A DNA stretch of 36,054 nucleotides from Comamonadaceae bacterium (GTDB lineage Bacteria > Pseudomonadota > Gammaproteobacteria > Burkholderiales > Burkholderiaceae_C). Shown here piece by piece: positions 10,920 through 25,825 of the stretch; the first letter of the stretch is position 1; each line of letters starts with the position of its first letter. The notes under the pieces were generated by a model that saw only the letters and a list, made by a program, of their open reading frames with translations, ran no database searches and was not told where the DNA came from. The translations under genes and the position numbers were made by a program. The DNA is taken from contig CANFZL010000004.1 in assembly GCA_947451205.1 (NCBI GenBank), forward strand, positions 1 through 36,054. Direction: 5' to 3'.

Positions 10920-11681
10920 TTAAACTCCCAAAAATCCTGCCAGCGCAGCACTGGCAGCCACCGCAGGGGCGGAACCCTGCAAAACCACCAGCCCTTTTTG
11001 CAGCACGATGGCTCGGTCGGAATGGGCCAACACCTTGCGGTAGTCTCGGTCAACGATCAAGGTGGCGATGCCGCTGGCGCGGATCTGTCCGATCACGCGC
11101 CAGATGTCGGCCACGATCAGCGGTGCCAGTCCTTCAGTGGCTTCGTCCAAAATGATGAGTTCAGGGTGCTGCATCAGCGCGCGGCCGATGGACAGCATTT
11201 GCTGCTCACCACCGGACAACTGCGCACCGAGGTTGCTGATTCGCTCTTGCAACCGCGGAAAGGTTTCCAGCACCCGCTCTAGCGACCAGTCGTTGCGCCC
11301 GTCACGGCCAAGCCGGGCGGCCATCACCAAATTTTCTCGCACCGTCAGGTTGGGGAAAACGCCGCGCCCCTCGGGCACATAAGCCACACCGAGTCGCGCC
11401 ACTTCGTGCGGTTTGGCGCGCGAGCAGTCCTTGCCGAACAGCGTCAAATGTCCCTCGCGCTGCGCCACATGACCGAGTAGGCTGCGTATTAGCGTGCTTT
11501 TGCCCATGCCGTTGCGGCCGAGCAGACCGATCGTTTCACCGCGCCCGATTTGCAGGTCGATGCCGTGCAGCACATGGCTGGAACCGTACCAAGCATGGAT
11601 CGCGTGCGCGTCCAGCAGCAGATCGACAGAAGCCACCGAAACATCGTCCGACATGGATGCGGTTGCATATAGCTTGCTCAT
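10920..11681 (-). CDS. livF: ABC transporter ATP-binding protein, branched-chain amino acid type (LivF-like)
   Basis: 253 aa; GRNGMGKSTLIRSLLG, LSGGEQQMLSIGRALMQHPELIILDEATEGLAP. Confidence 0.9.
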   Translation of the reverse strand: MSKLYATASMSDDVSVASVDLLLDAHAIHAWYGSSHVLHGIDLQIGRGETIGLLGRNGMGKSTLIRSLLGHVAQREGHLTLFGKDCSRAKPHEVARLGVAYVPEGRGVFPNLTVRENLVMAARLGRDGRNDWSLERVLETFPRLQERISNLGAQLSGGEQQMLSIGRALMQHPELIILDEATEGLAPLIVADIWRVIGQIRASGIATLIVDRDYRKVLAHSDRAIVLQKGLVVLQGSAPAVAASAALAGFLGV

Positions 11682-11682
11682 G

Positions 11683-12447
11683 TCAATGCTCCCCGAGATA
11701 AGCAGCCTGCACCAGCGGATTGCTGCGTATGGCTGCCGGCGTGTCGGTCGCGATCACGCAACCATTGACCATCACCGTGATGCAGTCAGCGATGCGAAAA
11801 ATGGCGTCCATGTCATGCTCGACCAGCAAGATGGCATGCCCTTGTTTGAGTTCGGCCAACAAGGCCAGCATGCGCTCGGTTTCTTCAGCGCCCATGCCCG
11901 CCAGAGGTTCGTCGAGCAGCAGCACGTCGGGCGCCGTGGCCAGGCACATGGCGATTTCAAGCTGGCGCTTTTGGCCGTGCGACAGCAGGCCGGCATCGCG
12001 GTCCAGCAGTGGCCTCAAACCGCTGCGCTCGGCAGCGGCGTACGCTGCCGCCAGGCTTGCTTCGCAGCGCTGTGCATTCTGCCAAAAAAGCCATGGCTTT
12101 TGGATACCCGCCTGGGCCGCCAAGCGGCAGTTTTCAAGCACAGAGAAGCTCGGGTAAATCGTGTTGCGTTGGTAGCTGCGCCCCAGCCCGGCACGGGCGC
12201 GCCGCGGCTGAGTCCAGCCAGTCACGTCTTGACCCATCAACTCGACCCGGCCGCTAGACGGCTCGATTTCGCCTGACAAGATGTTGATGAGCGTGGACTT
12301 GCCCGCGCCGTTGGTGCCGATGACCGCATGCACGGTCCCGCGCTCAAGTGCCAACGAGACCTTGTCAAGCGCCAGCAGCCCGCCCCAACGGCGGCTGATC
12401 TCCTGCCCGCGCAGCAAGATGTCGGGAACGCTTTCAGACGGCTTCAT
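11683..12447 (-). CDS. livG: ABC transporter ATP-binding protein, branched-chain amino acid type (LivG-like)
   Basis: ORF 11683..12468; start at 12447 (MKPSESVPD) preferred because AAGGAG precedes it. GTNGAGKSTLINILSG, LSHGQKRQLEIAMCLATAPDVLLLDEPLAGM. Confidence 0.88.
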   Translation of the reverse strand: MKPSESVPDILLRGQEISRRWGGLLALDKVSLALERGTVHAVIGTNGAGKSTLINILSGEIEPSSGRVELMGQDVTGWTQPRRARAGLGRSYQRNTIYPSFSVLENCRLAAQAGIQKPWLFWQNAQRCEASLAAAYAAAERSGLRPLLDRDAGLLSHGQKRQLEIAMCLATAPDVLLLDEPLAGMGAEETERMLALLAELKQGHAILLVEHDMDAIFRIADCITVMVNGCVIATDTPAAIRSNPLVQAAYLGEH

Positions 12448-13429
12448 GGCGCGCTCCTTCTTCTTCACCGCGACGACCGGTCAGCCGTGCCTTGATTTGT
12501 CCTGGTAAACCCACCAGACCGCGCGGCAGCAAGACCACGCTGGCGATGATGGTCAAGCCCAAACCCATGTTCCAATGTTTCGCAAAGGCGCCAAAGATCG
12601 CTTCAGATTTGAAGAATTCCTGTAGCAGCGCAAAGGCAAACGCACCGATCAGCGCACCACGCAAATCGCCGAGCCCACCCAAAATAATCATGATGAGCAC
12701 CGCACCCGAGAGGTGCCAGCTCATCATCTCGGGATTTACGTAGCCGTCTTTGATGGCGAACAGAAATCCCGCCAGACCGGCAATGCCGCCAGAAATCACA
12801 AAGGCACCCAGCTTGTAGGGGTAGGTCGAAAAACCGGTGGCCCGCATGCGCTGTTCGTTGACGCGAATGCCTGAGAGCGCCCGGCCAAAACGTGAGCGCA
12901 ACAGCAGCGCTAAAAAGCCGAACACCGCCACCAACACAGCCAGTGTGAAACCGTACAACACGTGTGCGTTGTCCAGGTCAAGCCATGTGCCTAGCGTCGG
13001 TTTGACCATCAGGTAAATGCCGTCTGTGCCGCCGCCCAGTGGTGTGTCATGCACCACGTAATAGGCCATCTGCGCGAAGGCCAAGGTGACCATGATGAAG
13101 TAAACACCCTTGGTCCGCAGCGACAAGGCACCGACCATCAAGGCGTAAGCGCTGGCGGCCAGCACGCTGGCCGGCAGCAACCAAGCCAGCGACGACGCAT
13201 CGGTGGGCGAGGCCAGCAACACCGCCGCGTACGCGCCAATCCCAAAGAAGGCGGCATGGCCAAAGCACACCAAGCCGGTGGTGCCCACCAGCAACTCCAG
13301 GCTGAGCGCAAAGACCGCAAAGATCATGATCTTGGTGACCAAGTCAATGCCGTAGCTGCCGCTGACCAACGGGTAAAGCCCTAACGCCACAAAGGACGCG
13401 ATGGCGAATAAATTTTTAGAATTGAACAT
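12434..13429 (-). CDS. livM: ABC transporter permease, branched-chain amino acid type (LivM-like)
   Basis: 331 aa hydrophobic; SLELLVGTTGLVCFGHAAFFGIGAYAAV, GAVLIMIILGGLGDLRGALIGAF. Confidence 0.9.
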   Translation of the reverse strand: MFNSKNLFAIASFVALGLYPLVSGSYGIDLVTKIMIFAVFALSLELLVGTTGLVCFGHAAFFGIGAYAAVLLASPTDASSLAWLLPASVLAASAYALMVGALSLRTKGVYFIMVTLAFAQMAYYVVHDTPLGGGTDGIYLMVKPTLGTWLDLDNAHVLYGFTLAVLVAVFGFLALLLRSRFGRALSGIRVNEQRMRATGFSTYPYKLGAFVISGGIAGLAGFLFAIKDGYVNPEMMSWHLSGAVLIMIILGGLGDLRGALIGAFAFALLQEFFKSEAIFGAFAKHWNMGLGLTIIASVVLLPRGLVGLPGQIKARLTGRRGEEEGARHEAV

Positions 13430-13432
13430 CGC

Positions 13433-14320
13433 TCATCCCGCCTTGAAAAGTCCGTCCGGCTTCCACAGCAGGATCAAGGCCATCAGCACATAGACCAACA
13501 CACCGGCGGCTTCGGGTAGCAACACCTTGCCAAAGGTGTCGACCACACCGATCAACAGCGATGCCAGGAGCGCTCCCCTTATGGAGCCAATGCCGCCGAT
13601 GACCACCACCACAAAACAGATGATGAGCACACTGTTGCCCATGCCCGGGTAAACCGACGACACCGGTGCGGCCACCATGCCGGCCAACACAGCAATCGCT
13701 ACGCCCGCAGCGAATACCACGCGGTATAAAAATTTGATGTCAATGCCCAGCGACTGCACCATTTCGCGGTTCGTGCTGCCGGCGCGGATCATCATGCCCA
13801 GCCGCGTGCGCGTGAACACCAGGTACATGCCGAGCGCCAACACCAAACAAACCGCCGACACAAACAGACGGTAAACCGGGTAGGTCATGACGTCGCCCAA
13901 TGCCAGCGTGCCGGACAGCAGCGCCGGCACATCGACGCCATGCACGTCGTCGCCCACCAAGATGCTGCGCAACTCTTCAAAGACCAGAATCAAACCGTAG
14001 GTCATGAGCACCTGCTGCAGGTGTTCGCGGTCGTACAAGAAGCTGTAAAACGCCCATTCGAGCACGTAGCCCAGAATCACCGCCAGCACCAGCCCGACGC
14101 ACAAGGTAGCGAAAAATCCGCCGCCAAACGTCATCGCTACAAACGGTGCCAGCGCGTACGCCATGTAGGCGCCGATCATGTAGAAACTGCCATGCGCCAA
14201 GTTGATGACGCCCATGATTCCGAAGATCAGTGTCAAGCCTGAGGCCACCAAAAACAGCAGCAAGCCGTATTGCAGTGCGTTCAGGCACTGAATTAAAAAG
14301 ATCGACAAATCCATGGGCAA
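13433..14320 (-). CDS. livH: ABC transporter permease, branched-chain amino acid type (LivH-like)
   Basis: 295 aa; SGLTLIFGIMGVINLAHGSFYMIGAYMAY, VVVVIGGIGSIRGALLASLLIG. Confidence 0.9.
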   Translation of the reverse strand: MPMDLSIFLIQCLNALQYGLLLFLVASGLTLIFGIMGVINLAHGSFYMIGAYMAYALAPFVAMTFGGGFFATLCVGLVLAVILGYVLEWAFYSFLYDREHLQQVLMTYGLILVFEELRSILVGDDVHGVDVPALLSGTLALGDVMTYPVYRLFVSAVCLVLALGMYLVFTRTRLGMMIRAGSTNREMVQSLGIDIKFLYRVVFAAGVAIAVLAGMVAAPVSSVYPGMGNSVLIICFVVVVIGGIGSIRGALLASLLIGVVDTFGKVLLPEAAGVLVYVLMALILLWKPDGLFKAG

Positions 14321-14338
14321 ACCTCTGTGCAGAGCGGT

Positions 14339-15523
14339 TTAAAGACGGCAGCCACGGCCAGGGTCAGACAAGCCTTTGCTGGCAATCCCAATCACTTTAT
14401 TTTCTTTGCCTGTGACCTGGCGCAAGTAAAAGTCTTGCACCGGGTTGTTCGACTTGGAAATGGTGAAGGGGCCGCGTGGGCTGTCAATTTTGGCTTTGTG
14501 CAGGGCAGCAGCAAATTCGGCTTTCTTGCTCACATCGCCTTTGACGGCGCTCAGGCCAATACCCAGCATTTGACCGGCGTCGTAACCTTGCACAGCGTAA
14601 ACGTCAGGCTGCAATTTATAGGCCTTGGCGTAGCTCAGGCGAAAGGCGTTGTCGCGCGGCGTGCCAAGGCTGTCCGCGTAATGTAGCGCCGTCAGCAGGC
14701 CGTCGGCGTCGGCGCCTTGGGCTTCCAGCGTGCCATCGGTCAGGAAGCCTGAACCGTACAGCGGGATATTTTTCTTCAATCCGGCTGCCGCGTAGTCCTT
14801 GACAAATTTCACCGCGCCGCCGCCAGCAAAAAAGGTGTAAACCGCATCCGGCTTGGTGGCGGCAATGTCGGTCAGCAGGGATTGAAACTCGACGTTCGGG
14901 AACGGCAAGCTGAGTTCTTTGACGACTTTACCGCCACCTTTTTCAAAGGCTTCTTTGAACCCTTTCACGGACTCGTCGCCGGCTGCGTATTTCCAGGTGA
15001 TGGTGACGACCTTTTTAAGTCCTTTTTTAGCCATGACTTCGCCCATGGCGTAGCCGGGTTGCCAGTTGGAAAAGGAGCTGCGGAAAATATTGACGGCGCA
15101 CATTGGGCCCGTCACGGCGTCAGCACCCGCGTTGGGCACGATCAACAACGTACCGCTGTCTTTGGCCACTTTGGCCATGGCCATGGCCACGCCTGAATGC
15201 ACGGTGCCGATCAGCACATCCACGTTGTCACGCTTGATCAGTTTGTTGACGTTGTCCGTTGCCTTGGAGGGGTCCGACTCGTCGTCGACTTTGAAGAACT
15301 CGATCTCACGACCACCCAGCTTGCCGCCGTTTTCAGCGACGTACAGACGAAAACCATTTTCAATCGCCGTGCCCAGTGAGGCAAAAGTGCCGGTGTACGG
15401 CAGCATCAGGCCGACTTTGAGCTTGGCCGGCGCTTGTGCCAGCGCAGTGCTGGCGCTGGCCAGCAAACTGAGGGCGGCTAGGGCGGCCACGAGCGGGCGG
15501 CGGGTCATTTGGATTGGTTTCAT
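14339..15523 (-). CDS. livK: ABC transporter periplasmic substrate-binding protein (LivK-like, type I)
   Basis: 394 aa; signal peptide MTRRPLVAALAALSLLASASTALAQ, LKVGLMLPYTGTFASLGTAIENGFRLYVAENGGKLGGREIEF. Confidence 0.9.
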   Translation of the reverse strand: MKPIQMTRRPLVAALAALSLLASASTALAQAPAKLKVGLMLPYTGTFASLGTAIENGFRLYVAENGGKLGGREIEFFKVDDESDPSKATDNVNKLIKRDNVDVLIGTVHSGVAMAMAKVAKDSGTLLIVPNAGADAVTGPMCAVNIFRSSFSNWQPGYAMGEVMAKKGLKKVVTITWKYAAGDESVKGFKEAFEKGGGKVVKELSLPFPNVEFQSLLTDIAATKPDAVYTFFAGGGAVKFVKDYAAAGLKKNIPLYGSGFLTDGTLEAQGADADGLLTALHYADSLGTPRDNAFRLSYAKAYKLQPDVYAVQGYDAGQMLGIGLSAVKGDVSKKAEFAAALHKAKIDSPRGPFTISKSNNPVQDFYLRQVTGKENKVIGIASKGLSDPGRGCRL

Positions 15524-15544: not shown

Positions 15545-16366
15545 TTAGGCTGGCTGGGTGAGTGGAAAATGGTGTTTGAAAAATGCTTCAATGCGCGCGA
15601 TCAACTGCGCTGGCTGGTCGCGGTGCGGGGAATGGCCGCATTCTGCCAGTTCAAACAACTCGGTCTGCGGCACGCTTGTGGCAATGTCGCGAATTTGGCT
15701 CAGTGTGCCGTACTCGTCGTCGAGTCCCTGTATCGCCAACAACGGGCAAGTGATGGTGGCAACGTCCGCCACGATCGTCCATGACCGGAAAGCCGGGTCT
15801 AGCCAGATTTTGTTCCAGCCCCAAAAAGCAGAATCGGGGTCTGCATGGTGGCGCGCCAAGCGCTGGCGCAAATCGGTTTCTACATAAGCTGTGCGCGTTT
15901 TAGCAATGCTGCTGACCGAGATGTCTTCCACCCTGATGTGCGGCGCCAAGAGCACCGCGCCGGCCACACGATTCGGGAAACGTGCAGCGTACAGCAAAGC
16001 GATCGAGCCACCATCGCTGTGGCCCAGCAAGCAAGGTGGGTTGGCAGCGGTGTCCACGCCCAAGGCCAGCAGCAAAGCGGGCAACACCTCATGCGCTTGG
16101 CGGTGCATGAAGTCGGGCGCCCAAACGTCGTCAGCCGCACGTGGGGTCGACTGGCCGTAGCCGGGTCGTGAATAGACCAGCCCGCGGCAGCCCAAGGCAC
16201 GGCACAGCGTCTGCGGGAAGTCGCGCCACATCGACAACGAGCCTAGACCTTCGTGCAAAAAAACCAGCAGCGGCGCGTCGGAATTTTCTTCGCCCAGCCA
16301 CTGGTATTCGACGCGCACAGCCCGTCCAGCCCAATCGATCTCGGCCGTCAAGGTGCTCTGCATCAT
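15545..16366 (-). CDS. Alpha/beta hydrolase associated with box (benzoyl-CoA oxidation) locus
   Basis: 273 aa; LVFLHEGLGSLSMWRDFP, LLGHSDGGSIALLYAARFP (GHSDGG nucleophile elbow), ECGHSPHRDQP; 4-nt overlap with the upstream ligase gene. Confidence 0.85.
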   Translation of the reverse strand: MMQSTLTAEIDWAGRAVRVEYQWLGEENSDAPLLVFLHEGLGSLSMWRDFPQTLCRALGCRGLVYSRPGYGQSTPRAADDVWAPDFMHRQAHEVLPALLLALGVDTAANPPCLLGHSDGGSIALLYAARFPNRVAGAVLLAPHIRVEDISVSSIAKTRTAYVETDLRQRLARHHADPDSAFWGWNKIWLDPAFRSWTIVADVATITCPLLAIQGLDDEYGTLSQIRDIATSVPQTELFELAECGHSPHRDQPAQLIARIEAFFKHHFPLTQPA

Positions 16367-17946
16367 GCGGATGTCTTGTCCATGTCGCGCAGTTTGAAGC
16401 GCTGAATCTTGCCAGTAGCCGTCTTCGGCAACTCCGGCAAAAACTCGATCACGCGCGGGTATTTGTACGGGGCCAAGCGTTCTTTGACAAAGGCCTTGAG
16501 TTCATCGGCCGTGGCCATTTGCCCCGACTTGAGCACCACGAAAGCCTTGGTTTTGGTCAAACCCTCGCTGTCGGTCATGCCGATCACAGCAGCTTCCAGC
16601 ACAGCCGAGTGCTGCACCAAAGTCGCTTCGACTTCGAATGGCGACACATAAATGCCGCTGACCTTGAGCATGTCGTCGCTGCGGCCGGAGTAGGTGTAAG
16701 TGCCGTCGGCGTTGCGCACATATTTGTCGCCGCTCTTGGTCCAAGCGCCCTGAAAGGTTTCGCGCGTTTTGTCGCGGTTGCCCCAGTACAGCAAAGCTGC
16801 ACTCGGGCCGCGCACGTAAAGGTCGCCGGTCTCGCCATCGGCGACCGGCAAGCCGTCGTCACCGCGCAACTCGACGTCATAGCCAGGCACCGGCCAGCCG
16901 GTGGTGCCGTAGCGCACTTTGCCGGGAATGTTGGACACATAAATATGCAACATCTCGGTGGAACCGATGCCGTCAATGATCTCTACGCCGTAGTGGGCGG
17001 TGAAACGCTGACCCAAGTCAGCCGGCAAGGCTTCGCCAGCAGACGACACCAAACGCAAAGCCACTTCGTTTTTGGCGGGTAAGTTCGCCGAGGCCAGCAT
17101 GCCCGCGAAGCCTGTCGGTGCGCCAAAAAAGACCGTCGGCTGCTGCTCTTTCCAGCGCTTGAAGGTGGCGTCGGGCGTCGGCCGCTCAGCCATTAGCACA
17201 ACGGTCGCGCCCACGCTCAAGGGAAAACTCAAACCGTTGCCCAAGCCGTAGGCAAAAAAGAGCTTGGCGGCTGAAAAGCAGACATCTTTTTCTTGCAAGC
17301 CGAGAACGGCTTTGCCATACAACTCGGCGGTCCAGTAGGGATTGGCGTGGGTGTGGGTGGTGCCTTTCGGACGGCCGGTGGAGCCTGACGAATACAACCA
17401 AAAACCAGGATCGTCCGGGCTGGTCGCCGCCGCTTTCTCCAAGGGCGCGCTGCGCTCGATCAAAGCGTCCAAAGATACTTCGCCATTTATTAATGTTGCG
17501 GCTGGTCGGGACACCACCACAGCCTGGACTTCATGTCCGCCCTGCGCCATGGCTTGTCGCAAGATCGGCAGCAGCGCGTCCGACACCAACGCGGCCTGCG
17601 AGCGGCTGTGCTGCAACATGAAGGCGTAGTCGTCGGCGGTCAGCAGGGTGTTCACCGCCACCGGAACCAGCCCGGCGTACATCGCGCCCAGAAAACTCAG
17701 CACCCAGTCGCTGCTGTCGTGCATGAGCAGCAGCACGCGCTCTTCACGGCGCAGACCCAGTGCCAGCAAGCCGGCAGCGACGCGCCTAATCCGTTCCGCC
17801 AACTCGCCATAGCTGAGCTGCCCGACATCATCGATCAGGGCGATTTTGGCGGGCCGGCTGACGTTGCAGTCAATCAGGTGCTGCGCAAAATTAAAGCGTG
17901 GGCCGGGGGTCGCTGGCCGTGAGCCTTGTGCAAGTGTTGGTGCCAT
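16363..17946 (-). CDS. bclA: Benzoate-CoA ligase family protein
   Basis: 527 aa; FWLYSSGSTGRPKGTTHTHANPYWTAELYGKAVLGLQEKDVCFSAAKLFFAYGLGNGLSFP, GSTEMLHIYVSN, KTATGKIQRFKLR; located in box locus. Confidence 0.92.
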   Translation of the reverse strand: MAPTLAQGSRPATPGPRFNFAQHLIDCNVSRPAKIALIDDVGQLSYGELAERIRRVAAGLLALGLRREERVLLLMHDSSDWVLSFLGAMYAGLVPVAVNTLLTADDYAFMLQHSRSQAALVSDALLPILRQAMAQGGHEVQAVVVSRPAATLINGEVSLDALIERSAPLEKAAATSPDDPGFWLYSSGSTGRPKGTTHTHANPYWTAELYGKAVLGLQEKDVCFSAAKLFFAYGLGNGLSFPLSVGATVVLMAERPTPDATFKRWKEQQPTVFFGAPTGFAGMLASANLPAKNEVALRLVSSAGEALPADLGQRFTAHYGVEIIDGIGSTEMLHIYVSNIPGKVRYGTTGWPVPGYDVELRGDDGLPVADGETGDLYVRGPSAALLYWGNRDKTRETFQGAWTKSGDKYVRNADGTYTYSGRSDDMLKVSGIYVSPFEVEATLVQHSAVLEAAVIGMTDSEGLTKTKAFVVLKSGQMATADELKAFVKERLAPYKYPRVIEFLPELPKTATGKIQRFKLRDMDKTSA

Positions 17947-17984: not shown

Positions 17985-19547
17985 TTATTCATTGACAGGT
18001 TTCAAGTGCGCCAGCACTGCTGTGCTGGCCTGCACGGCGCTGCGGCGGTGGTAAAAATTGAGCGCCCGAAGGCCGCCCAGTTCTTCGCCACCACCCGCGC
18101 GGCCAGGCCCGCCGTGCAGCGACTGCGGCATCACGTTGCCGTGGCCCGTGTGCAGTGCCGCCACGTCGGGCGAAATGATGTGCACGCGGCCGTGGCTGTC
18201 GGCCAGTTCCAGTGCGGCGCTGGCCAGCGCAGCCGGGTCACTGCCGTATAGCGACGTGACCAGCGAGCCTTGACCGCGTCGCACCAGCGCCAGCGCATGG
18301 GCGATGTCGCGGTAAGGCACCAGGGTGGCGACCGGGCCAAAGACTTCGGTGTCGTGCACATGGCGCGAGGCATCGCTGACCTCTGCCGTGCGCAGCCCCA
18401 GCAAGGTCGGGCCGACGCAGCAAGCGATGGCTGGATCGGCATCGACCAGCGCATGGGCAGCGCCGTCGTGCAGCACTTCGGCTTCGGTTTTGAGCAGCGC
18501 CAAGCCTTCCTGCACAGTGTTGAATTGTGCGCGGTTCACCAGCGCGCCCATGCGCACCGTCTCGTTGCGAGGGTTGCCCACCGTTGTTTTGACCAACCTG
18601 GCGCTGATGGCAGCAGCAACCTCTTTGTAAACAGCTTGCGGCACCAGCACGCGGCGAATCGCCGTGCATTTCTGGCCTGACTTGACCGTCATTTCGCGGG
18701 CCACTTCTTTGGCCAACAACTCGAGTGCTTCGGCGCCAGCATCTGGCAAGAGCAGTGCCGAGTTCAAGCTGTCGGCTTCGATGTTGACGCGGACTGAGCG
18801 CTGTGTGACGGCGGGATGCGAACGAATGACCGCGGCGGTGGCTGCCGAGCCGGTGAAGGACACCACGTCAAAGGCTTGCAACTGGTCCAGCAAACCGGCT
18901 GAACTGCCGCATATGACGGACAGTGCGCCCGCCGGCAAGACGCCGGCGTTCACCACGTCTTGCACCATGCGCTGCGTCAGCCAAGCGGTGGCCGTGGCCG
19001 GCTTGATGATCACCGGCACACCCGAGAGCAGCGCAGGCGCGGCTTTTTCCCACAAGCCCCACGCGGGGAAATTAAAGGCATTGATGAAGAGCGCCACACC
19101 GCGGGTTGGCGTCATCACATGCTGAGACTGAAACAGCGGGTCTTTGCCCAAACGCGCGCTGTCACCGTCTAACAGGTGATGCCGATCACCCAGCGATTCG
19201 CCCATCTTGGCGTAGCTGCCGAGCGTGAAAAAACCGCCGTCGATGTCGACTGCCGTGTCGTTTTTCACGGTGCCGCTGTTGGCGGTGGCGATGGCGTAGT
19301 AAGCCTCGCGGTTGGCTTGCAAGACCTTGCCGACTTCCGCCAACAGAGCAGCCCGTTGTCGGTAGCTCAACTGCCGCAAGGCGCTGCCGCCTTGCTCGCG
19401 GGCAAAGGCAAAAGCTTCAGCCAGATCCATACCCGTGGCGTCGACGCGCACCAGCGGCGTGCCCAGCACAGGGTCGACCAGTTCGGTGCCTGCACCACTG
19501 CCGTTTTGCCAACGGCCGGCCAAAAAATTAGGGAGAAGTTCAGTCAT
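17985..19547 (-). CDS. boxD: 3,4-dehydroadipyl-CoA semialdehyde dehydrogenase (BoxD/PaaZ-type ALDH)
   Basis: 520 aa; FNFPAWGLWEKAAPALLSGVPVIIKPAT, VVSFTGSAATAAVI, VKSGQKCTAIRRVLVP, MPQSLHGGPGRAGGGEELGGLRALNFYHRRSAVQ; typical of box-cluster ALDH. Confidence 0.9.
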   Translation of the reverse strand: MTELLPNFLAGRWQNGSGAGTELVDPVLGTPLVRVDATGMDLAEAFAFAREQGGSALRQLSYRQRAALLAEVGKVLQANREAYYAIATANSGTVKNDTAVDIDGGFFTLGSYAKMGESLGDRHHLLDGDSARLGKDPLFQSQHVMTPTRGVALFINAFNFPAWGLWEKAAPALLSGVPVIIKPATATAWLTQRMVQDVVNAGVLPAGALSVICGSSAGLLDQLQAFDVVSFTGSAATAAVIRSHPAVTQRSVRVNIEADSLNSALLLPDAGAEALELLAKEVAREMTVKSGQKCTAIRRVLVPQAVYKEVAAAISARLVKTTVGNPRNETVRMGALVNRAQFNTVQEGLALLKTEAEVLHDGAAHALVDADPAIACCVGPTLLGLRTAEVSDASRHVHDTEVFGPVATLVPYRDIAHALALVRRGQGSLVTSLYGSDPAALASAALELADSHGRVHIISPDVAALHTGHGNVMPQSLHGGPGRAGGGEELGGLRALNFYHRRSAVQASTAVLAHLKPVNE

Positions 19548-19580: not shown

Positions 19581-20045
19581 TTATCGGGTGAAGTCGATGC
19601 GGCCTTCAGGCAGCAGATAGAGAACCAAGGCGCGGCCTTGGGTGACGGTCGGGCGGTGCGCGCTGCCCGGTGGGCAGACCAGCCAACCCGCCGGACGGCC
19701 GTCAAAGCAGGCGCCGGCGTCCACTGGCATGACCAGGTCAATTTCACCGTTCGGGTGGCTGTGGTGCGGCCCGGCGACATCGGTCATGTCGACGACATCG
19801 ACTGAAAAGCCATGCAGGTCGTCGGCGGGCTTGAAGATGCGGCCGTATTTCAAACCGCCGCCTTCGCGGTCACACAGCCAGCCTTCGGCCACACCGGCGA
19901 CGCAAGCTGCCTGCAATTGGGTAAAAGTGGCGCTGCCGGGGCCGTGCTCAGCATTGAGCCAGGCGTCCAGTTCGGCATTCAGCGGGCGGCCCGCCAGTTG
20001 CGTCGTCAGTTGAGCAATCTGCTCGCGAAATTCAAGGGGAGACAT
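19581..20045 (-). CDS. DUF4863 / 4-hydroxylaminobenzoate lyase (PnbB)-like small protein
   Basis: 154 aa; cupin-like HHSHPNGEIDLVMP...PAGWLVCPPGSAHRPTVTQGRALVLYLLPEGRIDF; first gene of the boxD/bcl minus-strand operon. Confidence 0.7.
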   Translation of the reverse strand: MSPLEFREQIAQLTTQLAGRPLNAELDAWLNAEHGPGSATFTQLQAACVAGVAEGWLCDREGGGLKYGRIFKPADDLHGFSVDVVDMTDVAGPHHSHPNGEIDLVMPVDAGACFDGRPAGWLVCPPGSAHRPTVTQGRALVLYLLPEGRIDFTR

Positions 20046-20105
20046 TGGGGAACTCGTCCATTCACGGGAAGGTTAGGGTGCACGACCTAGCTTGTCAGGC
20101 CTTGC

Positions 20106-20129
20106 AACATGAATTATTATGCGTGCCTG
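20106..20129 (-). promoter_or_regulatory. Candidate box operator, copy 1: CAGGCACGCATAATAATTCATGTT (minus-strand reading)
   Basis: 20 of 24 positions identical to 21135..21158; ends 60 nt upstream of the first gene of the minus-strand box operon. Confidence 0.65.
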
Positions 20130-20200
20130 AACAATAAAGCGCGCAAAGCATCGTGTCAAGCACTATATTGCATGTACTAGGGATAACACCGAGCCAGCCC

Positions 20201-21094
20201 ATGCCAGAAAAGACAGACCACAACAGTAAGAACCCATTTTTGGTGGCCTTGGGCGAGCGCGTGCGTGGTTTGCGGGCTCGCCGCGGCATGACGCGCAAGG
20301 CCGTCTCGATAGCGGCTGATGTGTCTGAGCGTCACCTTGCAAATCTTGAATACGGCGAAGGCAACGCCTCTATCTTGGTGCTGCTGCAGGTGGCCAGCGC
20401 CTTGCAGTGCAGCTTGGCCGAGTTGATTGGCGATGTCACCACGCTGTCGCCAGAATGGTTGCTGATCCGAGAGTTGTTGGAGCGGCGCGGTGAAGCCGAC
20501 CTGCGACTGGCCCGCATCGCTTTGGGCGAGTTATTGGGAACCGGCGGCGGCGCGTCTGGAACTGTCAGCACGCGGGTGGCGCTGATAGGGCTGCGCGGTG
20601 CAGGCAAGTCGGCACTCGGGCAGATGCTGGCCGAAGACCTCGGTTTTCCCTTCGTTGAGCTGAGCCGCGAGATCGAGAAGTTTGCCGGCTGCAGTGTGGC
20701 TGAAATCCAGGCTTTGTATGGCCAAAATGCCTACCGCCGCTATGAGCGCCGCGCCATGGAGGAGACCATACAGATTTATCCCGAAGCGGTGATCGCCACG
20801 CCCGGTGGCCTGGTCTCGGACCCGGCCACCTTCAACCAGCTGCTCAGCCACTGCACCACGGTCTGGCTGCAGGCCGACCCCGAAGACCACATGAACCGCG
20901 TGTTGGCCCAAGGCGACACGCGGCCGATGGCGGCCAGCAAAGAGGCGATGGAAGACCTGAAGGGCATTCTGGCTGGCCGTGCGGCTTTTTACTCGAAGGC
21001 GCAGCTGACCCTCAACACCAGCGCTCAGGGCTTAGCGCCTTCTTTCGCGCTGCTGCGCAGCCAAGTGCGCGATATTCTTCAGCTACCGGCCTGA
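20201..21094 (+). CDS. boxR: BoxR-type transcriptional regulator: N-terminal HTH (XRE) fused to shikimate kinase-like domain
   Basis: ORF 20153..21094 begins with GTG; ATG at 20201 (MPEKTDHNSKNPFLVALGERVRGLRARRGMTRKAVSIAADVSERHLANLEYGEGNASI) is preferred. C-terminal VALIGLRGAGKSALGQMLAEDLGFPFVELSREIEKFAGCSVAEI matches shikimate-kinase-type P-loop domain. Confidence 0.92.
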   Translation: MPEKTDHNSKNPFLVALGERVRGLRARRGMTRKAVSIAADVSERHLANLEYGEGNASILVLLQVASALQCSLAELIGDVTTLSPEWLLIRELLERRGEADLRLARIALGELLGTGGGASGTVSTRVALIGLRGAGKSALGQMLAEDLGFPFVELSREIEKFAGCSVAEIQALYGQNAYRRYERRAMEETIQIYPEAVIATPGGLVSDPATFNQLLSHCTTVWLQADPEDHMNRVLAQGDTRPMAASKEAMEDLKGILAGRAAFYSKAQLTLNTSAQGLAPSFALLRSQVRDILQLPA

Positions 21095-21121
21095 GTTTTG
21101 AGAGAATCTGCAAAAAAGTGC

Positions 21122-21151
21122 TTGACCTCGGCTTCAGGCGTGCATTATTAT
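21122..21151 (+). promoter_or_regulatory. Possible sigma70-type promoter for boxCBA (TTGACC - 18 nt - TATTAT) overlapping the 24-bp element
   Basis: TTGACC at 21122..21127 and TATTAT at 21146..21151 read directly; no transcription-start evidence. Confidence 0.35.
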
Positions 21152-21158
21152 TCATGTT
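21135..21158 (+). promoter_or_regulatory. Candidate box operator, copy 2: CAGGCGTGCATTATTATTCATGTT
   Basis: 20/24 identity with the reverse complement of 20106..20129; ends 53 nt upstream of the boxC ATG at 21212. Confidence 0.65.
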
Positions 21159-21211
21159 AAGAATTTTAAAAGGTGCAGCTTCCTGCATCTGAACGGCAGC
21201 ACAACGGAGAT

Positions 21212-22882
21212 ATGTCCATGACCACAGCCCTTGCACCGCGCGTCGAATACCAAACCGACCCGACCCAGTACAAACACCTCAAGCTCAGTTTTAACGGCCC
21301 AGTGGCCACGCTGGCGGTCGACATTGACGAGAACGCGGGATTGCGTCCGGGCTACAAGCTTAAGCTGAACAGCTACGACCTCGGCGTCGACATTGAACTC
21401 AATGACGCAGTGAGCCGCATCCGTTTTGAGCACCCTGAAGTGCGCACCGTGGTCGTCACCAGCGGCAAAGACAAGGTCTTTTGCTCCGGCGCCAACATCT
21501 TCATGCTGGGCGTCAGCAGCCATGCCTGGAAAGTCAACTTCTGCAAATTCACCAATGAAACCCGCAATGGCTTGGAAGACTCCTCCAAGCACAGCGGCTT
21601 GAAGTTCTTGGCTGCTGTGAACGGCGCTTGCGCCGGTGGTGGCTACGAGCTGGCCTTGGCTTGTGACGAAATCATCTTGGTGGATGACCGCTCCAGCGCG
21701 GTCAGCCTGCCGGAAGTGCCTTTGCTCGGCGTGCTGCCCGGCACCGGTGGCCTGACCCGCGTGACCGACAAGCGCCATGTGCGCCACGACTTGGCCGACA
21801 TTTTCTGCACCAGCGTCGAAGGCGTGCGTGGTCAGAAAGCAGTCGACTGGCGCTTGGTCGACGCCGTTGCCAAGACCGCCGTCTTCGCTCAAAAAGTGCA
21901 GGAACGCGCACTGGAATTGGCCGCCCAAAGCGATCGCCCTGCCGATGGCCAAGGCGTGACGCTGACGCCGCTCAAGCGCACGGTAGAAGCCGACGCGCTG
22001 CGTTATCAGTATGTGAGCGTTGAGATTGAGCGTGCCAAACGCACCGCCACCTTCACTGTCAAGAGCCCGAGCGGTGCACAACCGACTGACATCGCTGCCA
22101 TCGAGAAAGCCGGTGCCGACTGGTTCCCGTTGGCCATGGCCCGCGAACTCGAAGACGCGATTTTGCAGATGCGCACCAACGAACTCGACATCGGCGTCTG
22201 GCTGATCAAGACCGAAGGCGATGCCGTTGCCGTGTTGGCCAGCGACGCCGTCTTAATGGCGCACCAAAACCATTGGTTGGTGCGCGAAACCATCGGCCTG
22301 ATGCGCCGCACCTTCAGCCGTCTCGACGTCTCGTCGCGCAGCCTGTTTGCGCTGATCGAGCCCGGCTCATGCTTCGCTGGTTCCTTCCTAGAACTCGCGC
22401 TGGCCTGCGACCGCAGCTACATGCTGGCGCTGCCGGACGACGCAGCCAAGGCACCAACCCTCACGGTTGGCGATAGCAACTTTGGCTTGTTCCCAATGGT
22501 CACCGAGCAAAGCCGACTCGGTCGCCGTTTTTATGATGAACAGCCTGCGCTGGACGCCGTGCGCGCCAAAGCCGGCCAGCCACTCGACGCCGACGCCGCT
22601 TTCGCGGTCGGCTTGGTCACCTCGAACCCGGACGACATCGACTGGGCTGACGAAGTGCGGATCGCGATTGAAGAGCGCGTCTCGATGTCGCCGGATGCCT
22701 TGACCGGCCTCGAAGCCAACCTGCGTTTCAACGGCCCGGAAAACATGTTCACGCGCATTTTTGGTCGTCTGACGGCTTGGCAAAATTGGATCTTCCAGCG
22801 GCCCAATGCTGTCGGTGAAAAAGGCGCCTTGAAGGTTTACGGCAAAGGTGACAAAGCCCAGTTCGACTGGAACCGCGTCTAA
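21212..22882 (+). CDS. boxC: Benzoyl-CoA dihydrodiol lyase (2,3-epoxybenzoyl-CoA dihydrolase), BoxC
   Basis: ORF 21173..22882; ATG at 21212 (MSMTTALAPRVEYQTDPTQYKHLKLSF) follows a GGAGA-like RBS. Crotonase-like AAVNGACAGGGYELALACDEI and a second crotonase-like half, typical of BoxC; adjacent to boxB. Confidence 0.93.
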   Translation: MSMTTALAPRVEYQTDPTQYKHLKLSFNGPVATLAVDIDENAGLRPGYKLKLNSYDLGVDIELNDAVSRIRFEHPEVRTVVVTSGKDKVFCSGANIFMLGVSSHAWKVNFCKFTNETRNGLEDSSKHSGLKFLAAVNGACAGGGYELALACDEIILVDDRSSAVSLPEVPLLGVLPGTGGLTRVTDKRHVRHDLADIFCTSVEGVRGQKAVDWRLVDAVAKTAVFAQKVQERALELAAQSDRPADGQGVTLTPLKRTVEADALRYQYVSVEIERAKRTATFTVKSPSGAQPTDIAAIEKAGADWFPLAMARELEDAILQMRTNELDIGVWLIKTEGDAVAVLASDAVLMAHQNHWLVRETIGLMRRTFSRLDVSSRSLFALIEPGSCFAGSFLELALACDRSYMLALPDDAAKAPTLTVGDSNFGLFPMVTEQSRLGRRFYDEQPALDAVRAKAGQPLDADAAFAVGLVTSNPDDIDWADEVRIAIEERVSMSPDALTGLEANLRFNGPENMFTRIFGRLTAWQNWIFQRPNAVGEKGALKVYGKGDKAQFDWNRV

Positions 22883-22969
22883 AAATTTATCGTTGTGCAG
22901 CGTATCTCTGGTGGCGCGCTGCAACCGAACTTCTTCCACCGTTGCAGACCTTTTTTATTGGAGACTCTC

Positions 22970-24397
22970 ATGTCCGGTATCAACTACAGCGAAAAAATTC
23001 CCAATAACGTCAACCTGAGCGAAGACCGCACCTTGCAGCGCGCGCTGGAGCAGTGGCAACCCAACTTCATCAACTGGTGGGACGACGTCGGCCCGGTCGG
23101 TTCGACCGACTCTGAGGTTTACCTGCGCACCGCTGTCAGCGTGGACCCGCAAGGCTGGGCCCAGTTTGGCCACGTCAAGATGCGCGACTACCGCTGGGGC
23201 ATTTTTCTGAACCCAGGCGAAGCTGAGCGGACCATTCACTTTGGCGACCACAAAGGCGAAAAAGCCTGGCAAGACGTGCCCGGTGAACACCGCGCCAACC
23301 TGCGCCGCATCATCGTCACGCAAGGCGACACCGAGCCTGCATCGGTCGAGCAGCAACGCCACTTGGGCCTGACCGCGCCCAGCATGTACGACCTGCGCAA
23401 CCTGTTCCAGATCAACGTCGAAGAAGGCCGCCATTTGTGGGCCATGGTGTATTTGCTGCACAAGCACTTTGGCCGTGACGGCCGTGACGAAGCCGAAGGC
23501 CTGTTGGAGCGTCGCAGCGGTGACGAGAACAATCCGCGCATTCTGGCCGCATTCAACGAGCAGACGCCCGATTGGCTGAGCTTTTTCATGTTCACTTACT
23601 TCACCGACCGTGACGGTAAGTTCCAGCTCTGCGCCTTGGCTGAAAGCGCTTTTGACCCGTTGGCCCGGACCTCTAAGTTCATGCTGACCGAAGAGGCGCA
23701 CCACATGTTTGTCGGCGAGAGCGGCATCAGCCGCGTGATCTCACGCACCGCTCAAAAAATGAACGAGCTGAAGACCGACGACGTTAACAAGCTGCGTGCC
23801 GCTGGCGTGATCGACCTGCCGACGATTCAGCGCTACATCAACTTCCACTTCAGCGTGACCATTGATTTGTTCGGCGCGGATGAGTCGAGCAACGCCGCCA
23901 CCTTCTACAGCACCGGCATCAAAGGCCGCTACGAAGAAGGTAAACGCGTCGATGACCACGTCCTCAAGGGCCAGACTTACAAAGTCCTGGAAGCACGCGA
24001 CGGCCAATTGGTCGAAAAAGAAGTGCCGATGCTCAACGCGCTCAACGAAGTGCTGCGCGACGATTACATCAAGGACTCTGTCGCTGGTGTGGAGCGTTGG
24101 AACAAGGTGCTGGAAAAGGCCGGTATTCCAACCCGCATGAAAGTGCCGCACAAGGCCTTCAACCGCAACATCGGTGCGCTGTCCGGCGTTAAAGTTTCAC
24201 CAGAAGGCCGCGTGCTGAGCCTGCCCGAATGGAAAGCGCAAGTCGGCGAGTGGTTGCCGTCGCTGCAAGACCGCGCTTACGTCGCCAGCCTGATGGGCCG
24301 TGTGGTCGAGCCAGGCAAGTTCGCTAATTGGATCTCGCCGCCGGTCATGGGCATCAACCGCCAGCCCGTTGACTTCGACTACGTGCGATTCAACTGA
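22970..24397 (+). CDS. boxB: Benzoyl-CoA 2,3-epoxidase subunit BoxB (di-iron oxygenase)
   Basis: ORF 22895..24397; likely ATG at 22970 (MSGINYSEKIPNNVNLSEDRTLQRALEQWQPNFINWWDDVGP). Di-iron ligand motifs EEGRHLWAMVYLLHKHF and LTEEAHHMFVGESG. Confidence 0.95.
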   Translation: MSGINYSEKIPNNVNLSEDRTLQRALEQWQPNFINWWDDVGPVGSTDSEVYLRTAVSVDPQGWAQFGHVKMRDYRWGIFLNPGEAERTIHFGDHKGEKAWQDVPGEHRANLRRIIVTQGDTEPASVEQQRHLGLTAPSMYDLRNLFQINVEEGRHLWAMVYLLHKHFGRDGRDEAEGLLERRSGDENNPRILAAFNEQTPDWLSFFMFTYFTDRDGKFQLCALAESAFDPLARTSKFMLTEEAHHMFVGESGISRVISRTAQKMNELKTDDVNKLRAAGVIDLPTIQRYINFHFSVTIDLFGADESSNAATFYSTGIKGRYEEGKRVDDHVLKGQTYKVLEARDGQLVEKEVPMLNALNEVLRDDYIKDSVAGVERWNKVLEKAGIPTRMKVPHKAFNRNIGALSGVKVSPEGRVLSLPEWKAQVGEWLPSLQDRAYVASLMGRVVEPGKFANWISPPVMGINRQPVDFDYVRFN

Positions 24398-24511: not shown

Positions 24512-25825
24512 ATGGACATGAGCACCACCATCGTCATCCAACAGCACCTGATCGACCCTGAGATCTGTATTCGGTGCAACACCTGCGAAGCGATCTGCCC
24601 GGTTGGCGCGATCACGCATGACTCGCGTAATTACGTCGTCGACGCTGAGAAGTGCAACCTGTGTATGCACTGCGTCCCGCCGTGCCCCACCGGCTCGATC
24701 GACAACTGGCGCACCATGCTGCGCGTCAAGGCCTACACGCCGGATGAACAATTGTTGTGGGACGAGTTGCCAGCAGAACTGCCTGCCGAGCAGTTGGCTG
24801 AAAACGGCGTGGTCGTGGCGGCGGGCGAGGCCGTATTGGCCGAAACCGAGACTGCAGCCGAGACCCCCGGCGATGCTCTACGCGCTGAAGCCAGCTTTAA
24901 CAGTTTTAACAGCGCGCAATACGGCGCGACACTGCCGCCGTGGTCGGCGGCCCATGCGTACACCAATCTCTACGGCCCCAAAGCCGCTGAAAAAACCATC
25001 ACCGCCACCGTCAGCGGCAACGTCCGCGTCACTGAAGTCGGCCAGACGGCCGGCAGCGATTACGACACCCACCACATCGTGCTGGACTTCGGCAGCCTGC
25101 CGTTTCCAGTGCTCGAAGGCCAGTCGATCGGCATCATTCCGCCCGGACTCGACGCCAAGGCTAAAGCCCACCACGCGCGCCAATATTCCATTGCCAGCCC
25201 GCGCAATGGCGAGCGGCCCGGCTACAACAACCTGTCGCTGACCATCAAGCGCGTGCTCGAAGACCATCAAGGCCAGCCGGTGCGGGGCGTCGGTTCCAAC
25301 TACATGTGCGACCTGCAAGTCGGCGACAAGGTGCAGGTCATCGGCCCCTTTGGTGCGAGCTTTTTGATCCCGAACCATCCGCGCAGCAACATCGTCATGA
25401 TCTGCACCGGCACCGGCAGCGCACCGATGCGCGGCATGACCGAATGGCGACGTCGGCTGCGGGCTTCAGGCAAGTTTGAAGGTGGCAAATTGATGCTGTT
25501 CTTCGGCGCCCGAACGCAAGAAGAACTGCCGTACTTTGGCCCGCTGCAAAACCTGCCCAAAGATTTCATCGACATCAACTTCGCGTTTTCGCGCACACCC
25601 GGCCAGCCCAAACGCTATGTGCAAGACGTCATGCGTGAACGCGCGGCCGATCTGGCGCCGCTGCTCAACGATGCCAACACCTGCTTTTATGTCTGTGGCC
25701 TGAAAAGCATGGAAGAGGGCGTGGTGCTGGCGCTGCGCGACGTGGCGACCCAAGCCGGTCTGGATTGGGACACGGTCGGCGCGTCACTCAAGCAACAAGG
25801 TCGCCTGCATTTGGAAACCTATTGA
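24512..25825 (+). CDS. boxA: Benzoyl-CoA 2,3-epoxidase reductase subunit BoxA
   Basis: 437 aa; two 4Fe-4S motifs [12 protein letters not shown] and [15 protein letters not shown]-type reductase domain [40 protein letters not shown]. Confidence 0.95.

Follow-up and report, generated by a model that had tools for sequence, protein, structure and literature searches.

BoxR and its paralogue BzdR are repressors with benzoyl-CoA as the inducer (PMC6449761, PMC6678401). Phylogenetic footprinting in Betaproteobacteria yielded the BoxR/BzdR operator consensus ATGCACTATAGTGCAT, a 16-bp palindrome of the form TGCA-N6-TGCA (Suvorova and Gelfand 2019, PMC6449761). According to the main text of that survey, the sites nearly always occur in multiple copies per region, and experiments show TGCA repeats for the operators. 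TGCA palindromes were footprinted for BzdR; at the bzd PN promoter of Azoarcus/Aromatoleum, OR1 is long and contains a TGCA-N15-TGCA palindrome, and the promoter has an upstream activator, AcpR (PMC6678401).

The locus described here lies in a stretch of 36,054 nucleotides (the window, meaning this whole stretch) from a Comamonadaceae bacterium. Its nearest named relatives, Polaromonas and Rhodoferax, were both included in the survey of PMC6449761. The locus resembles the box divergon described there, with boxR-boxCBA on one side and pnbB, boxD, ligase and ABC transporter genes on the other. The following genes surround the two intergenic regions of interest.

16363..17946, minus strand: gene for benzoate-CoA ligase, in the leftward operon (TIGR02262)
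17985..19547, minus strand: gene with an NF008868 match
19581..20045, minus strand: pnbB-like gene, previously labelled DUF4863 (Pfam PF16155, E 3.9e-55)
20153..21094, plus strand: boxR, XRE-type HTH and shikimate-kinase-like domain, 313 aa from the likely GTG start
21218..22882, plus strand: boxC (TIGR03222)
22895..24397, plus strand: boxB (TIGR03225)
24512..25825, plus strand: boxA (TIGR03224)

The boxR product has the domain make-up of the BoxR family, with an N-terminal XRE-type HTH (PF01381, 1e-7) and a C-terminal shikimate-kinase-like domain (PF01202, 4.7e-32). It scored 440 bits against NF006015 (cut-off 204), and the gene is linked to boxABCD and to benzoate-CoA ligase. Downstream of the ligase gene, positions 10920-15523 of the minus strand hold branched-chain-type ABC transporter genes, which make up the putative benzoate transporter usually seen in BoxR regulons.

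The 24-bp match and its core

Two 24-nt sequences, one in each intergenic region next to boxR (minus strand, 20129..20106; plus strand, 21135..21158), are identical at 20 of 24 positions, exactly as reported in the first-pass annotation of this DNA. The resemblance is real and above chance. In 2000 trials with shuffled versions of both regions, the best 24-mer match was at most 19 and typically 14-15. The joint 24-mer pattern occurred twice in the window at up to 3 mismatches and was absent from 100 shuffles.

The first-pass annotation had taken the 24 bp as a unit whose copies point toward their downstream genes. Judged by conservation, the functional unit is a 16-bp quasi-palindromic core within the match. 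The refutation proposed earlier was a core missing from orthologous promoters beside equally conserved flanks. The outcome was the reverse: in the promoters of relatives a core of 14-16 bp is the sole conserved part, and the flanks CAGGC and GTT, which raise the match to 20/24, lack conservation. Therefore, the 20/24 similarity over exactly these 24 bp is peculiar to the genome of the window. Orientation has no meaning, because the core is near-palindromic: the two cores of the window agree at 12/16 in either orientation, and the boxC-side core of one relative (L038) is the exact reverse complement (TGAATAATAATGCA). A directional 24-bp element was rejected on both grounds, conservation being limited to the core and the match being equal both ways.

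The two copies had also been placed at nearly the same distance from a start codon. The 60 nt between the minus-strand copy and the ATG of the pnbB-like gene was right. The 53 nt given for boxC holds if ATG 21212 is taken as the start; however, ATG 21218 is conserved in relatives and has better Shine-Dalgarno spacing, so that the distance is 59 nt. Near-equality is in any case uninformative, as the distances in relatives range over 33-119 and 33-90 nt, and a meaningful equal spacing was rejected because of this wide variation.

Predicted BoxR sites and promoters

ATGCACTATAGTGCAT recurs in the core in degenerate form, and assigning the core to BoxR is therefore consistent with the literature. 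Five predicted sites, a tentative sixth and three predicted promoters were placed in the two regions. Identities are to the published consensus, and scores are from a position weight matrix (PWM).

20109..20124: D2, predicted operator core in the minus-strand copy, ATGAATTATTATGCGT on the plus strand (11/16; PWM 20.75, rank 2)
20127..20142, minus strand: Dmid, degenerate tentative site over the leftward promoter -10, GCGCTTTATTGTTCAG (PWM 4.34, rank 14)
20158..20173: D1, strongest predicted operator, AAGCACTATATTGCAT (14/16; PWM 23.85, rank 1)
21108..21123: C1, predicted operator at the boxC promoter -35, CTGCAAAAAAGTGCTT (11/16; PWM 15.53, rank 4)
21140..21155: C2, predicted operator core in the plus-strand copy, GTGCATTATTATTCAT (11/16; PWM 19.53, rank 3)
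21173..21188: C3, weaker downstream predicted operator, GTGCAGCTTCCTGCAT (exact TGCA-N6-TGCA; PWM 7.97, rank 8)
20092..20120, plus strand: predicted rightward boxR promoter, TTGTCA-N17-TATTAT, with its -10 inside D2
20131..20159, minus strand: predicted leftward pnbB-boxD promoter, TTGACA-N17-TATTGT
21122..21151, plus strand: predicted boxC promoter, TTGACC-N18-TATTAT, with its -10 inside C2

The matrix was trained on non-close relatives only, with the window and its close kin left out. In the 36-kb window it ranked D1, D2, C2 and C1 first to fourth, and the next score was 8.4. A scan with the published consensus gave 8 positions at 11/16 or better, half of them (4/8) inside these two intergenic regions. 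C3 is the sole exact TGCA-N6-TGCA of the window. Dmid lies 31 bp after D1, as C2 lies after C1, and reaches 10-11/16 in several relatives. The two regions show, near ATGCACTATAGTGCAT, a TGCA-N6-TGCA palindrome in several regularly spaced sites per region, adjoining boxR and the box operons.

These observations suggest, at a probability of about 0.9, that D2 and C2 are a pair of BoxR operators within a set of five, possibly six, sites at the box divergon. The first-pass annotation had proposed the shared element as a candidate BoxR operator. That proposal is supported, inasmuch as both cores fit the published consensus and rank at the top of the window, and its interpretation of what is an already known operator class appears essentially right; what fell away is the directional 24-bp form. 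Its two copies were also not the full set. At least five sites are present, and it had missed D1, the strongest, as well as C1 (21108) and C3 (21173), which precede boxC.

D2 and C2 are 16-bp quasi-palindromes that belong to the TGCA-N6-TGCA class, although their half-sites are relaxed (TTCA, TGAA or TGCG). The half-sites are imperfect in D2 (TGAA/TGCG) and in one half of C2 (TTCA). Both cores reach just 11/16, the -10 boxes account for part of their conservation, and C3 is weak by its matrix rank, all of which counts against the BoxR reading. The overlap of the boxC copy with a -10 region, already proposed, was supported. The -10 box occupies positions 7-12 of both cores; D2 and C2 are alike because in each a predicted operator covers a -10 box with identical register, and the operators look asymmetric because the bases of the -10 box are also operator bases. 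D2 overlaps the boxR promoter -10 and the region where transcription from the leftward promoter would start. It is off the leftward -10 itself, since it bears the plus-strand boxR -10 and the leftward promoter runs from 20159 to 20131. The boxR and pnbB-boxD promoters (20092-20159) face each other, with predicted starts at about 20127 (plus) and 20124 (minus). Starts only a few bases apart suggest mutual occlusion. For boxC the start is predicted at about 21158 (plus).

From the anatomy of the sites and the established behaviour of BoxR and BzdR, we infer BoxR binding, repression, autoregulation and a response to benzoyl-CoA at this locus. C2 lies over the predicted boxC promoter -10 and D2 over the -10 of boxR's own promoter and the leftward start area, with stronger or additional sites at the -35 boxes (D1 and C1) and downstream (C3). 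BoxR dimers would occupy the sites cooperatively and keep RNA polymerase off boxC, pnbB-boxD and boxR: those on C1-C2-C3 would block the boxC promoter, and those on D1-D2 the pnbB-boxD promoter and, by autoregulation, boxR's own. Binding of benzoyl-CoA to BoxR would then free all three promoters.

The sites are like those in the main text of PMC6449761 in being 16-bp TGCA-N6-TGCA palindromes, several per intergenic region and about 3-5 helical turns apart. They differ in that the half-sites of D2 and C2 are relaxed and these two sites are in register with -10 boxes, and in that D1 lies within the boxR coding start; neither feature turned up in that main text. OR1-OR3 at bzd PN (PMC6678401) are the operators of BzdR, a repressor of the same family, and likewise comprise several TGCA palindromes, which cover the promoter and also lie beyond the start on the downstream side. 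However, they serve an anaerobic pathway, and their spacing differs from that of the box sites.

Assembly-wide scans were made by pattern matching, while the matrix was applied to the window. With ATGCACTATAGTGCAT at up to 3 mismatches, D1 was the only match in the 2.6-Mb assembly (about 79% complete). A relaxed consensus found D1, D2, C2 and two unrelated places, at a threshold where up to about 10 matches are expected by chance in the assembly by our own estimate. A wider BoxR regulon was rejected, as these two places (L117 and L118) were the only additions. L117 has a LuxR-type gene and an unnamed frame nearby, and L118 lies downstream of clpB; in the pieces examined, no aromatic-degradation context was found at either.

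Conservation in relatives and alternative explanations

Both intergenic regions were excised by tblastn from 80 boxR loci of species-level genomes. Sites at 11/16 or better numbered 2.39 per region on the boxC side and 2.15 on the boxR/pnbB side, versus about 0.09 in shuffles, although relatives share ancestry and the 80 loci therefore do not count as independent. At least one site was present in 79/80 boxC-side and 55/55 boxR/pnbB-side regions. Spacing was also kept: D1 and D2 are 49 bp apart in 47/55 relatives, C1 and C2 32 bp apart in 36 of 51 scored, and C3 commonly follows C2 by 33 bp. The TTCA half-site is TGCA at the same place in other lineages (L072, L102, L064 and L075). Many BoxR homologues of 48-63% identity have the motif nearby, and it is present at L025, L027, L028 and L029, whose BoxR homologues are only about 50-60% identical.

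The promoters are conserved as well. On the boxC side, operator and TATNAT in the same register with a TTG -35 were found in 64/80 relatives. The boxR promoter has a 17-bp spacer and a -10 of TATTRT or TATTCT in 52/55, with TTG at the -35 in all tabulated hexamers, and the leftward promoter, whose -35 is touched by D1, has TTGACA in 52/55. The shared element might be mainly a sigma-70 -10 region (TATTAT) in an AT-rich context and no repressor site at all, as TATTAT stands on the plus strand at the same offset in both cores, with a TTG -35 at 17-18 bp. We consider this very unlikely. The conserved columns take in GCA and TGC/TTC half-sites beyond the -10, the palindrome is also present in D1, C1 and C3, where there is no -10, and the inverted C2 core of L038 is intact.

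The sites might be read by another regulator, for example an activator of the BenR/XylS type, whose boxes (TGCA-N6-GGNTA) have the TGCA half in common with the sites described here (PMC6678401). The second half-sites of the window are TGCA, TTCA, TGCT or TGCG, and none is GGNTA. The motif moreover accompanies boxR across the 80 loci, also where the homologue is about 50-60% identical, and the gene between the two regions is boxR, which makes another reader extremely improbable. That the match arose recently, by duplication or gene conversion of a single promoter segment, has a chance close to negligible: in this genome it does run 4-5 bp past one side of the core (CAGGC), but the nearest relatives (L034-L039) lack the flank match and have a best match between the two regions of 16-19, often at C1/D1, and the cores diverge and are palindromic. 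BoxR operators overlapping -10 boxes thus remain the preferred reading of D2 and C2.

The boxR start codon and D1

The most likely start of boxR, from comparison with relatives, is GTG 20153 rather than ATG 20201, from which the product would have 297 aa; with GTG 20153, D1 would be codons 2-7 of the gene. In relatives, ATG or GTG stands at the same place, followed by the codons TCA AGC ACT ATA TTG CAT. In 60/77 relatives this start codon immediately precedes D1 and is followed by an open, in-frame path to the HTH. D1 and the HTH are 37 to 151 nt apart, yet the reading frame between them is kept in 73/77. Between D1 and the HTH, the block 20176-20190 (consensus TCAGGGTTAACACC on the plus strand, coding SGLTP) is unusually conserved, and the N-terminal linker after it differs in length between species.

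All 59 aligned boxR genes have AGC as codon 3 and ATA as codon 5. Elsewhere in boxR, ATA makes up 44/726 Ile codons, and the commonest codon of other conserved residues has a mean share of 0.67. Because codons 3 and 5 are invariant although ATA is otherwise rare, constraint acts on the DNA of D1. D1 also persists in 13 loci where a break or shift of the frame separates it from the HTH. The possibility that D1 is kept merely as coding sequence was rejected on these two observations.

It seems an even call whether, in most Comamonadaceae, the strongest predicted BoxR operator lies in boxR codons 2-7 (ATG TCA AGC ACT ATA TTG CAT) and also touches the -35 of the opposite catabolic promoter. As the promoters face each other with adjacent starts, one D1-D2 cluster would set the repressor level and pathway expression jointly, possibly with mutual exclusion of polymerases. 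An operator in the first codons of the repressor gene predicts autoregulation that can be tested by simple mutations. This placement is the single less expected detail of the locus, and the general picture of box pathway control is unchanged. The analysis places predicted BoxR sites precisely in a genome like those of Polaromonas and Rhodoferax and corrects the likely start codon of boxR; its value is in the revised site map, in the overlap of predicted operators with -10 boxes and in the predicted operator at the start codons of the repressor.

A second, more divergent BoxR group exists in the same genus, at L031, L032 and L033 and in further genomes. Its members at the three named loci, which were examined, had about 43-51% identity and about 345-397 bits, and some genomes have the divergent BoxR beside another BoxR copy. 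TGCA-N6-TGCA-like sites were strong by L031 and weaker by L032 and L033.
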